A stretch of DNA of 64,000 bases, taken from assembly GCF_003610195.1 (NCBI RefSeq), contig NZ_RAPO01000003.1, positions 434,001 through 498,000 of the forward strand, given 5' to 3'. This DNA comes from Halopiger aswanensis (GTDB lineage: Archaea > Halobacteriota > Halobacteria > Halobacteriales > Natrialbaceae). How positions within the stretch are numbered: position 1 is the stretch's first letter; each line of letters opens with the position of its first letter. The notes beneath the pieces are model-generated. The model worked only from the letters and a program-made list of their open reading frames with translations. It had not been told where the DNA came from and made no database searches. Both the position numbers and the translations under genes were made by a program. Shown piece by piece: positions 5,281 through 29,894 of the stretch.

Positions 5281-7776
5281 ATGGCAGCCCAGGACGAGGA
5301 ACCGCCCGCCATCGACCACCCGCTGCTCGAGCCCGACTTCCTCGAACGCCGCCTCTACCAGCTGCGGCTCGCGGGCACGGCTGCGAACCACCACACGCTC
5401 GTCTGTCTCCCCACCGGCCTGGGGAAGACGACCGTGAGCCTGCTCGTGACGGCCCGCCGGCTCGAGGAGGTCGGCGGGAAATCGCTCATGCTCGCGCCGA
5501 CGAAGCCGCTCGTCCAGCAACACGCCGATTTCTACCGCGAAGCCCTCCAGATCCCCGACGAGGAGATCGTCGTCTTCACCGGCGACGTCAGTCCGGACGA
5601 CCGCGCCGAAACCTGGCAGGAGGCGACGGTCGTGATGGCGACCCCGCAGGTGATCGAGAACGACCTCGTCGGCTCGCGGATCTCGTTGGCCGACGTGACC
5701 CACATCACCTTCGACGAGTGCCACCGCGCGACCGGCGACTACGCCTACAACTACATCGCCGAGCGCTACCACGAGGACGCCCGCGAGCCGCTCGTGACCG
5801 GGATGAGCGCCTCGCCCGGCGGCGACGAGGAGGCCATCCTCGAGGTCTGCGAGAACCTCGGCTTGGAGGAGGTCGAGGTGATGACCGAGGAGGACGCCGA
5901 CGTCGACGAGTTCACCCACGACACCGACGTCGAGTGGGAGCGCATCGACCTCCCCGACGAGGTGCTCGAGATCCGCGACACGTTAAACGAGGTCATCAAG
6001 GAGCGCCTCGAGAAGCTCAAAGAACTCGGCATCGCGAGTTCGACCCAGCCCGACCAGTCCCAGAAGGACCTGAACAAGATGCGCGCGGAGCTCCAACAGC
6101 TGATCAACAACGACCAGTCGGAGGGGTTCGAGGGGATGTCGATCCACGCCGAGGTGATGAAGCTCCGCCAGGCCGTGACGCTGGTCGAAACCCAGAGCGT
6201 CGAGGCCGTCCGGCGATACTTCGACCGCCAACGCAACCAGGCCCGCTCCTCGGGCGCCTCGAAGGCCAGCCAGCGGATGGTCTCGGATCCGCGAGTGCGG
6301 GAGGCCATGCGCAAGGCCGAGGACTTCGACGAGATCCACCCCAAATACCGGAAGACGCGGATGCTGCTCGCCGAAACGCTCGGCCTCGAGGGCGGCGAGC
6401 GCGTGATCGTCTTCACCGAATCGCGCGACACCGCGGAGGCGCTGACGGACTTCTTGAGCGATAGCTTCGACGCGAAGCGGTTCGTCGGGCAGGGCGACCG
6501 CGAAGGCAGCGACGGGATGACCCAGAAGGAGCAACAGGAAGTCCTCGACGAGTTCCGGGCGGGCGAGTTCGAGGTGCTCGTCTCGACCTCCGTCGCCGAG
6601 GAAGGACTGGACGTGCCCGAGGTCGACCTCGTGCTGTTCTACGAGCCCGTGCCGACGGCGATCCGCTCGATCCAGCGCAAGGGCCGAACCGGCCGCCAGT
6701 CGGAGGGGCGGGTCGTCGTCCTCATGGCCGAGGACACCCGCGACGAGGCCTACTTCTGGATCTCGCGGCGGCGCGAGCAGGAGATGGAGGACGAACTCCG
6801 CGAGCTGAAGGGGATGGCCGACGACCTCGAGGAAGAACTCGACGATTCCCAGCAGGCGCTGACCGATTTCGACGGGAGCAAGAAGCAACGCTCCTCGGAC
6901 GGGGCGACCGGCGGAGCCGCGAGCCGAGGCGACGAGAGCGAAGTGAAAGTGGACGCTAGAGATGGCGACCCCGACGCCGTCCCGGATTCTTCCACTGGAA
7001 ATGAGGGGGATGCGACACAGCCCGGACTGCGGGATTTCGCCGGCGAGATCGACTCGAGTTCGGCGGACGCCGGCGAAGCGGACGACGTCGAAACGCACGA
7101 ACCGTCGGCCGAGGGCGACACCATCGAAATCGTCGCCGACCAGCGCGAGATGGACGCCAACATCGCGCGAGACCTCTCGAGACGCGACGAGATCGAGGTC
7201 AGCCTCGAGACGTTGGACGTCGGCGACTACGTCCTCTCGGACCGGGTCGTCGTCGAGCGCAAGTCCGTGGCTGACTTCGTCGATTCGCTGGTCGGGGGCG
7301 ATCGGTCCGTCTTCGAGCAGATCGGCGCGATGGCTCGTCACTACTCCCGCCCGATCGTCGTCGTCGAGGGCGAGGGACTGTACGAACAGCGGGACATCCA
7401 CCCCAACGCCATCCGCGGCGCGCTCTCGAGTCTCGCGGTCGATTTCGACGCGAGCGTCCTCCGAACGGAAAGCGAGGACGACACCACCGAACTGCTGGCG
7501 ACGATCGCGGGCCGCGAGCAGGAGACGAGCGACCGCGAAGTCTCGGTCCACGGCGAGAAACAATCGAAGACGCTGGCCGAACAGCAGGAGTACGTCGTCG
7601 CTTCGATCGCCGAGATCGGGCCGGTTACCGCGCGGTCGCTGCTCGAGGAGTTCGGGACCGTCGAGGAAATGATGATCGCGACCGAGGACGAACTGCAGGA
7701 AGCTGACGGCGTCGGGCAGGTGACGGCCGAGCGGATCCGCGAAGTCGTCGGCAGCCGGTATCAGGGCCAGGGGTAA
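5281..7776 (+). CDS. hef: Hef: fused superfamily 2 helicase and XPF-type nuclease
   Basis: An 831-residue protein of the archaeal Hef/FANCM family, which unwinds and cuts stalled replication forks. The helicase half (about 1-520) shows Walker A LPTGLGKTT (about residue 43), DECH (about 145), TGMSASPGG, and the late motif QRKGRTGRQSEGRVVVLM. A charged linker of about 90 residues follows. The nuclease half has VADQREMDANIA and the catalytic ERKSVADFVDSL near residue 658 (ERKxxxD). A tandem helix-hairpin-helix ends the protein (IGPVTARSLLEEFG and ADGVGQVTAERIREVV). All active-site residues are intact. In haloarchaea Hef and the Holliday-junction resolvase Hjc provide overlapping routes for fork repair. 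Confidence 0.96.
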   Translation: MAAQDEEPPAIDHPLLEPDFLERRLYQLRLAGTAANHHTLVCLPTGLGKTTVSLLVTARRLEEVGGKSLMLAPTKPLVQQHADFYREALQIPDEEIVVFTGDVSPDDRAETWQEATVVMATPQVIENDLVGSRISLADVTHITFDECHRATGDYAYNYIAERYHEDAREPLVTGMSASPGGDEEAILEVCENLGLEEVEVMTEEDADVDEFTHDTDVEWERIDLPDEVLEIRDTLNEVIKERLEKLKELGIASSTQPDQSQKDLNKMRAELQQLINNDQSEGFEGMSIHAEVMKLRQAVTLVETQSVEAVRRYFDRQRNQARSSGASKASQRMVSDPRVREAMRKAEDFDEIHPKYRKTRMLLAETLGLEGGERVIVFTESRDTAEALTDFLSDSFDAKRFVGQGDREGSDGMTQKEQQEVLDEFRAGEFEVLVSTSVAEEGLDVPEVDLVLFYEPVPTAIRSIQRKGRTGRQSEGRVVVLMAEDTRDEAYFWISRRREQEMEDELRELKGMADDLEEELDDSQQALTDFDGSKKQRSSDGATGGAASRGDESEVKVDARDGDPDAVPDSSTGNEGDATQPGLRDFAGEIDSSSADAGEADDVETHEPSAEGDTIEIVADQREMDANIARDLSRRDEIEVSLETLDVGDYVLSDRVVVERKSVADFVDSLVGGDRSVFEQIGAMARHYSRPIVVVEGEGLYEQRDIHPNAIRGALSSLAVDFDASVLRTESEDDTTELLATIAGREQETSDREVSVHGEKQSKTLAEQQEYVVASIAEIGPVTARSLLEEFGTVEEMMIATEDELQEADGVGQVTAERIREVVGSRYQGQG

Positions 7777-26095: not shown

Positions 26096-27337
26096 ATGCA
26101 GATCGACGGATTAGATAACGGGCATATCGATCGACGAATGCTTCTCAAAGCGGTAAGTGGAACGGGACTGGCGCTGGGCGGCCTCGCGGGCTCGGTCGGC
26201 GTCACCGCCCAGGAGTCCGACGGAGAACGGACGCTGCTCGACCTCGACGACCGAGCACGATTCAACATCGGATACGCGACCCCGCACGGAGCCGAACTAG
26301 CAAGAGAAGCGGCAAACGGCGTCGTCCACGAAATCGACCCGATCGGCGCGATCACCATCGAGTCGACGCTCGACGCCGTGCAGGACCTCGCCGGCTCCGA
26401 TCACATCGAGTTCGTCGAGATCGATCCGGTGTACCGACTCATCCTTCCGCCGCAGGCGGTACAGGATCGCGATCCGACCGGTCAGACGGTGCCGTGGGGT
26501 ATCGAACGCATCGGTGCGCCGACCGCTCACGCGGCCGGTATCCGGGGCGAGAGCGCTCACGTAGCAGTGATCAATACGGGAATCGATCCGACTCACGAGG
26601 ACCTTCGTGCGAACGTTGGCGACGGCATCGCAGTCACTCCGTGCCGAGGAGAGTGCGAGACGGCGTGGGACGACGATTTCGGACACGGAACGCACGTCGC
26701 CGGCACTATCGGCGCGCTCGACAACCGGCTCGGAGTGCTCGGCGTCGCACCGGAGGCGACGCTGCACTCCGCCAAAGTGTTGAACAGCAACGGGGTCGGA
26801 TTCGCGTCAGACGTCGCGCTGGGTATCCTCTGGACCGCCGCGCAGGGCTACGACGTCGCGAACATGAGTCTCGGCGGCCCGTTCTCGACGGTGGTCCAGG
26901 ACGCTCTCGAGTTCGCAGCCGAACGAGACGTATTACTGGTGGCCGCCGCGGGGAACCAATCGGGGCCGGTCAGTTACCCCGCATCCGCCGATGAGGTGAT
27001 TGCGGTCAGCGCAACGACCGAAACCGACGACCTCGCCGTGTTCTCGAACGTCGGACCGGAAATCGAACTGGCAGCCCCCGGTGTCGACGTTCTCTCGACC
27101 CTCCCGAACGACCGGTACGCGGAACTGAGCGGGACGTCGATGGCGGCACCGCACGTGAGCGGAACGGGTGCACTACTCGCGGGGATCGGCTACTCCGCCG
27201 AGGAAGCGCGAACCTTCATGAAGGAGACCGCGGAAGATCTCGGCCTCCCGCCCGAAGAACAGGGATCGGGTCTCGTTACCGCCGCAGCCGTCGCCGAGCG
27301 GCGACCGAAAAAGAGCGGGCGGAAAACCGCACCCTAA
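26096..27337 (+). CDS. Subtilisin-like protease homologue with Asp-to-Asn active-site change
   Basis: A 413-residue Tat-exported S8 protease homologue. The Tat signal is DRRMLLKAVSGTGLALGGLA; a propeptide-like region follows to about residue 135. The catalytic domain has DFGHGTHVAGTIGA (His), AAGNQSGPVSYPAS (oxyanion Asn) and GTSMAAPHVSGTGALLAG (Ser). The first triad position, normally D in a VIDTG motif, reads AVINTGIDPTHEDL: the codon at 26573-26575 is AAT, Asn. Otherwise the fold is complete and in the halolysin length range, without the extra C-terminal domain. The protein may be inactive or very slow. Confidence 0.88.
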   Translation: MQIDGLDNGHIDRRMLLKAVSGTGLALGGLAGSVGVTAQESDGERTLLDLDDRARFNIGYATPHGAELAREAANGVVHEIDPIGAITIESTLDAVQDLAGSDHIEFVEIDPVYRLILPPQAVQDRDPTGQTVPWGIERIGAPTAHAAGIRGESAHVAVINTGIDPTHEDLRANVGDGIAVTPCRGECETAWDDDFGHGTHVAGTIGALDNRLGVLGVAPEATLHSAKVLNSNGVGFASDVALGILWTAAQGYDVANMSLGGPFSTVVQDALEFAAERDVLLVAAAGNQSGPVSYPASADEVIAVSATTETDDLAVFSNVGPEIELAAPGVDVLSTLPNDRYAELSGTSMAAPHVSGTGALLAGIGYSAEEARTFMKETAEDLGLPPEEQGSGLVTAAAVAERRPKKSGRKTAP

Positions 27338-29216: not shown

Positions 29217-29894
29217 TCAGGGCGTGATAACGGTACTCGTCAACTCGGCGAGAGTCCCTTCGACCGTGTAGTCGGGCGCTTCGACTCTGAACGGCGACGC
29301 AGTCGACCCCGCGTAATGTAGCTGTAGCGTGTACGACCCGTCCTCGGCGATCGGCGCTGCTTCGTTGCGGTCGGCGTCGACCTGCTCGAGCATGACCATC
29401 TCGCCGGCGTAGCTGGCGTCGGACTGTCCCTCGATCTTGTAGGTTGTACGCTCCTGTGAGACCGCCGATCCCTCGAGTGGATATCCGTTATCGATCCAGG
29501 CCTGAAACCCTTCGTCGAGCGCGTACACCTCCTCGTACCCGTCGTCGATCAGCGATGCGGCTCGCATGGACGACAGGTGGTGCGGGCACCCACAGTAGGT
29601 GACGATCTGCGTATCGGTCGACCACTCTTCGGCTGGATCGTTTTCGGTCCCGTCCGGTGCAGGCGAAAAGACGGCACCGGCAATGTGTCCCTGTTCGTAC
29701 TGATTCCGACCGCGCGCATCGGCAAAGTTCGCCTCGTCGTTCTCGTACCACTCGTACACGTCGTCGATCGGAGCGAGGGGCACCTCGATCCCGTTCGTGG
29801 TCGTCGTTTCGTATCCGTCATTGCCGCCGAGACAGCCAGCGACGGTCCCGAGGGCCGTCGCCCCACCGAGTCCGAGAAACGTCCGTCGGTTCAT
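29217..29894 (-). CDS. Tat-exported rhodanese-like lipoprotein
   Basis: A 225-residue protein. The N-terminus is a Tat lipoprotein signal (NRRTFLGLGGATALG, lipobox TVAGC). A rhodanese domain follows: NFADARGRNQYEQGHIAGAV, then IVTYCGCPHHLSSMRAASL with the active-site Cys in TYCGCPH, and YALDEGFQAWIDNGYPLEGS. The last 80 residues form a small beta domain (SYTLQLHYAGSTASPFRVEA). It probably handles sulfur or persulfide on the outer face of the membrane. Its stop faces the Old Yellow Enzyme gene 16 bases away; the two converge. Confidence 0.87.
   Translation of the reverse strand: MNRRTFLGLGGATALGTVAGCLGGNDGYETTTTNGIEVPLAPIDDVYEWYENDEANFADARGRNQYEQGHIAGAVFSPAPDGTENDPAEEWSTDTQIVTYCGCPHHLSSMRAASLIDDGYEEVYALDEGFQAWIDNGYPLEGSAVSQERTTYKIEGQSDASYAGEMVMLEQVDADRNEAAPIAEDGSYTLQLHYAGSTASPFRVEAPDYTVEGTLAELTSTVITP

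Follow-up and report, generated by a model that had tools for sequence, protein, structure and literature searches.

What becomes of an exported subtilase in which the aspartate of the catalytic triad is an asparagine is the question raised by a gene of Halopiger aswanensis that lies in the 64,000-nucleotide stretch of DNA analysed here (hereinafter, the window). The gene (26096..27337, + strand, as are all its features given below) encodes a 413-aa protein that matches the Pfam profile PF00082 above the cut-off, over profile positions 3-287 of 288 (E = 1e-49), and its best solved relative is the Bacillus subtilisin 1c9m (phmmer, E = 1.7e-59 over residues 130-399). In the phmmer alignment, Asn160 (AAT, 26573..26575), which is part of VAVINTGIDPTHE, is found opposite the catalytic Asp of VAVLDTGIS in 1c9m, that is, Asp32 of BPN'. 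The remaining catalytic residues are intact, namely, His197 in GHGTH (BPN' His64; 26684..26686), the oxyanion-hole Asn287 in AAAGN (BPN' Asn155; 26954..26956) and Ser348 in GTSMAAPH (BPN' Ser221; 27137..27139). The D-[ST]-G motif around the catalytic Asp of S8 subtilases is missing from this protein and from the whole clade of asparagine-type relatives described below. The features of the sedolisins (S53, Ser-Glu-Asp) are absent as well: H197 and N287 are present, and there is neither a Glu in place of the His nor an oxyanion Asp. Judging by these motifs, the protein is an S8 subtilase by descent and not by possession of the full triad.

The N-terminus of the protein is twin-arginine-like (IDRRMLLKAVSG, by inspection). 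The putative twin-arginine (Tat) signal, IDRRMLLKAVSGTGLALGGLAGSVGVTA, spans residues 1-39 (26096..26212), has no lipobox Cys and contains an RR motif that is aligned in the relatives. An earlier note on this DNA had reported the replacement of the triad Asp, the integrity of the other three residues and a Tat signal, and the alignments, the profile match and inspection of the N-terminus bear it out on these points. Downstream of the signal are a propeptide region (approximately residues 50-115, 26243..26440), which aligns with the propeptides of relatives that have the Asp (hereinafter, Asp-type), a long linker between the propeptide and the mature domain (residues 116-129, 26441..26482) and the catalytic domain (residues 130-400, 26483..27295), which corresponds to residues 2-267 of 1c9m. 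The Asp-type sister lineages have this linker too, so its presence does not depend on Asn160. The protein stops about 13 residues past the end of the catalytic domain (at about residue 400) and has no C-terminal extension. An AlphaFold prediction, given two sequences only, had a mean pLDDT of 29.6, too low for use.

Relatives were searched with the window protein among 125 Natrialbaceae genomes; the genus-mate of the window genome is Halopiger xanaduensis SH-6 (G001). The motif VAVINTGID is present in five relatives (L008, L010, L011, L012 and L014), and Asp is found in L009, L013 and all the others. The nearest relative by identity (L008, 67%) is of the asparagine type and comes from a genome of genus group g15 (G067), the DNA of which in part resembles Natrinema and Natronococcus plasmids. 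The other four asparagine-type relatives (56-59% identity) belong to genus group g13, Natrialba, with N. chahannaoensis (G043), N. hulunbeirensis (G044), Natrialba sp. SSL1 (G046) and a fourth member (G045) that we take to be N. magadii. At similar distances are the Asp-type genes of Natronococcus sp. AD-5 (L009, 58%) and of G038 (L013, 56%). Altogether, the asparagine type is represented in 6 genomes of 3 genera, all from separate assemblies, and His, the oxyanion Asn and Ser are retained in each of the 6 genes.

In a 37-row phylogenetic tree, the six asparagine-type genes lie on one side of a branch with 99/98 support, and the clade is recovered with 99/97 support in a 34-row tree from which positions 160 and 230 (see below) were removed. 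The Asp-type sisters encode the triad residue by GAT, the window gene and L008 by AAT, and the four Natrialba genes by AAC. This amounts to a single transition and, later, a synonymous change; hence it was the amino acid, not the codon, that was kept. The dN/dS values within the clade (0.07-0.25) are similar to those in Asp-type groups (0.06-0.30), with 0.20 for the pair of the window gene and L008, a rough estimate since dS is 1.26; the asparagine-type genes are under ordinary purifying selection. With five further Asn-bearing genes in a single clade against 29 of 29 other close relatives with Asp, the Asn in the triad is, by sequence comparison, more than a chance occurrence. The trees and codons indicate that the Asp to Asn change arose once, in the common ancestor of a small Natrialbaceae lineage, and was kept thereafter, so Asn160 is an inherited, selected trait. 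The earlier note had considered a recent mutation and had named relatives that all carry Asp, together with read evidence for a single-strain error, as what would refute its observation; with VINTGID conserved in five relatives of other genera, with two synonymous codons and under purifying selection, that explanation is rejected. By the same token, a sequencing error or a mutation of a single strain is refuted, since the six asparagine-type genomes are separate assemblies and represent three genera.

The genes around this clade show some peculiarities of their own. In the Asp-type sister L013 (G038, - strand from 2733), the oxyanion motif reads SAQN, not SAGN (BPN' G154Q). An Asp-type sister group (L015-L018, L090) is found in other Natrialba and in Halostagnicola; G047 has two copies of this sister gene, separated by approximately 6 kb, and in H. 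larsenii the gene is carried by a 574-kb plasmid. In the N. hulunbeirensis gene seen at L043:5574-6836 (the same gene as L014), the frame is shifted by an ambiguous base close to the 3' end, which is probably a flaw of the draft assembly.

How rare such subtilases are was gauged by scanning one genome per species, in 84,980 species, for the strict motif [VIM]A[VIM]x-N-[ST]-G-[VIM]-D-x-x-H, with records near the window genome left out. The ten matches comprise 3 Natrialba genes, L048, L047 and L050, and four matches that by inspection do not resemble subtilases. Hence no intact asparagine-type subtilase was detected outside the clade with this motif in the 84,980 species, although other motif contexts may escape such a scan. 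A looser motif, applied to 394 genomes of the class, yielded, in a subtilase context, only the same six genes (places beyond the 30 loci were judged from the matched DNA), and its Asp version is present in 108 of the 125 family genomes. The bacterial match L048 (a frame of 884 aa on the - strand of an Oligoflexia MAG), is a subtilase with Asn for Asp in a degenerate site: the catalytic His is lost (HGTH to QGTH), as is the oxyanion Asn, and GTSAA is kept. Its subtilase domain is preceded by long DPGQ and PPVDD repeats, and the protein seems to be a pseudoprotease of independent origin. The Asn-bearing subtilase motifs of L047 (about 7677-7712, + strand, IINSGVDYNHPDL) and L050 (about 2339-2374, - strand, VINSGIDLNHPNL) lie in short or broken frames, and these are probably decayed genes or draft errors. 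Matches to ILNSGIDGVH, in many family genomes, and to VINWGID, in G105, were discarded because they are not subtilases. Also outside the subtilases, ILNSGIDGVHGAVAQLG is a motif that recurs, strongly conserved, in many Natrialbaceae within a long open frame (about 1501-1530 in L057, L058, L072 and similar 3030-base loci). A natural lineage of Asp-to-Asn subtilases was not found described in the open-access literature, the absence not being proof.

Comparison of alignment columns between 29 Asp-type relatives and the 6 asparagine-type rows shows how narrow the change is. Among the 99 columns conserved in the Asp-type set (at least 93%), 77 are kept in the asparagine clade and 22 vary somewhere within it, and only two that are fully conserved in the Asp-type set are changed in all six genes, namely, 160 (BPN' 32) and 230 (BPN' 97). 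In both, Asp is replaced by Asn: position 230, where KVLD becomes KVLN (Asn230, AAC, 26783..26785), is Asp in 29 of 29 Asp-type rows and Asn in 6 of 6 asparagine-type rows. We assume that this position belongs to the loop after Leu96, which borders the substrate cleft in subtilisins. A functional link between the two replacements is suggested by this pattern, with the caveat that, given the single origin, it amounts to one coincidence of two changes. No Asp or Glu specific to the asparagine clade was gained, which leaves unsupported the possibility, raised in the earlier note, that another Asp might serve the triad. Elsewhere in the cleft, the residues of the window protein and L008 are ordinary ones; in the four Natrialba members, replacements are also seen at BPN' 127 (G127S) and 222 (M222F), along with small residues at 217. 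The ratio of the propeptide rate to that of the catalytic domain in the asparagine clade is not consistently above that in Asp-type pairs, so the idea that a relaxed propeptide betrays the loss of self-processing, hinted at by comparison with one Asp-type group, was abandoned.

The genomic setting offers no partner for the protein. The window genome encodes five other S8 proteins, all with Asp, and the nearest of these paralogues is 35-40% identical and located elsewhere; no second close homologue was found at E <= 1e-70 in any of the asparagine-type genomes. Near the window gene are genes for a zinc alcohol dehydrogenase, an amidohydrolase and an oxidoreductase of the old-yellow-enzyme type; in Natrialba, the neighbourhood includes a SOR/SNZ gene and one for a GHMP kinase, and in G067 a recombinase-like ORF (by inspection). 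No neighbour or operon partner is shared among the window, G067 and Natrialba settings. Further along the window (29217-29894, - strand), a protein is encoded that has a rhodanese domain and an N-terminus resembling a signal, MNRRTFLGLGGATALGTVAGCLGG; it may be a Tat lipoprotein. Without a close Asp-type paralogue or a shared neighbour, a dedicated sister protease is not evident, and the suggestion of the earlier note that the protein is a chaperone-like inhibitor of such a protease is not supported. Regulation of one sister protease, as a decoy, inhibitor or chaperone that arose by gene duplication, would follow a known route of pseudoenzyme evolution, and the genome has five other S8 genes with Asp; given the low identity of the nearest paralogue, its location elsewhere and the lack of a shared neighbour or of a second close homologue, we consider it very improbable.

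Tentatively, we favour the view that this exported subtilase is a Ser-His-Asn enzyme whose slow or conditional state became fixed in the lineage; this view is slightly preferred to that of a binding pseudoprotease, which is nearly as likely. Low activity and a binding pseudoprotease are two of the four readings offered in the earlier note. Under the slow-protease model, a Tat-exported, propeptide-bearing subtilase would retain Ser348, His197 and the oxyanion Asn287, and Asn160 would position and polarise His197 less well than Asp does; turnover and self-maturation would then be strongly cut at neutral pH and higher in alkaline surroundings. The benefit, we infer, would be safety because Tat substrates fold on the cytoplasmic side, and an active halolysin maturing inside the cell would damage it. 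In trypsin D102N, kcat is 10^4-fold lower and about 6% of the wild-type activity is reached at pH 10.2 (PMC12018205), and in the case of the Tat-dependent halolysin SptA, intracellular activation affects growth and has been linked to cell death (PMC6085418). It is this combination of residual activity in the Asn form and toxicity of halolysins inside the cell that favours a slow or conditional enzyme. Also in line with it are the persistence of the Asn in all six members, dN/dS values of the same order as in Asp-type relatives and a propeptide retained at about the usual relative rate. The retention of His, Asn and Ser leans the same way, but does not stand out significantly from the conservation of the fold in general, and it was discarded as proof of activity because 77 of the 99 conserved columns are kept anyway. 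On the other side of the ledger, the Asp32-to-Asn replacement blocks self-processing of subtilisin E, and the G127S and M222F changes in Natrialba may reflect a drift away from catalytic function. Of the Natrialba species, N. magadii, N. chahannaoensis and N. hulunbeirensis are haloalkaliphiles from soda lakes; the Halopiger of the window is not known to be alkaliphilic. The pH argument therefore fits Natrialba better and does not extend to every member, and a uniform link with alkaliphily was dropped because it fails to cover the Halopiger member. The most elaborate version of the model, namely, a lineage of secreted Ser-His-Asn proteases that would be slow or silent in the neutral cell and switched on by alkali outside, with the second Asp-to-Asn change, near the cleft, as part of the adaptation, is rather unlikely.

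A true pseudoprotease, a serious contender although it stands somewhat behind the slow enzyme, would use its fold and cleft outside the cell for binding peptides, a partner or a cell-surface component without cutting them, and the propeptide would stay in place unless another protease removed it. Most natural losses of triad residues end catalysis, at least one catalytic residue is replaced here and the replacement is conserved in the lineage, and the Natrialba members have altered their clefts further. Moreover, real functions are known for two subtilase pseudoproteases, CspC and CspA of Clostridioides difficile (PMC6636752). However, in contrast to CspC, with its replaced His and Ser, and to L048, none of the six genes from three genera has lost any other catalytic residue, a conserved partner gene was not found beside the subtilase, and the Asn variant of the related triad of trypsin keeps some activity (PMC12018205). 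The remaining alternatives assume that a carboxylate function is somehow restored. Near-normal activity would result if another acid or a small anion of the brine took the place of the triad carboxylate, and anion-rescued subtilisins that lack Asp32 have indeed been engineered; but the acids present in the clade are also common in Asp-type relatives, the second conserved Asp is itself Asn now, and Asn160 occupies the space that an anion would need, all of which makes this scenario improbable. Even less probable is a timer in which Asn160 would slowly deamidate, more readily at alkaline pH, and so restore the Asp triad after export. Asp is the natural deamidation product of Asn, alkali speeds up the reaction, and such a timer would explain why the Asn is held by selection with the other residues intact, as is the case here; but the residue that follows Asn160 is Thr rather than Gly, which implies slow deamidation, and the site of the triad Asp is buried in subtilisins.

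The role of the triad Asp has been studied almost only in laboratory mutants. A lineage with a fixed Asn, all the other catalytic residues and a second acid changed in step lets one ask in a natural setting if a protease with a Ser-His-Asn triad is of any use or, alternatively, how a protease turns into a binding protein, and it would bear on the self-protection of cells that export folded proteases. With the S8A subtilases of MEROPS (subtilisin and the Savinase group), the window protein shares the fold, as judged by sequence (1c9m), the His, oxyanion Asn and Ser motifs and the propeptide, and it differs from them in having Asn at the position of Asp32 and also at BPN' 97, which is Asp in the close haloarchaeal relatives. 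Like the halolysins SptA of Natrinema sp. J7 and Nep of Natrialba magadii, it combines a Tat-type signal, a propeptide and a subtilase domain in a haloarchaeon, but it lacks their C-terminal extension and the triad Asp. CspA and CspC of C. difficile are likewise subtilases in which an altered triad has been kept by selection; however, in CspC it is His and Ser that are gone and Asp that remains (PMC6636752), whereas in the window protein Asp alone is changed. The chemically identical change in the triad is that of the laboratory mutants, trypsin D102N and subtilisin Asp32, from which the window protein differs in that its change is natural, inherited and paired with a second clade-wide replacement of Asp by Asn.
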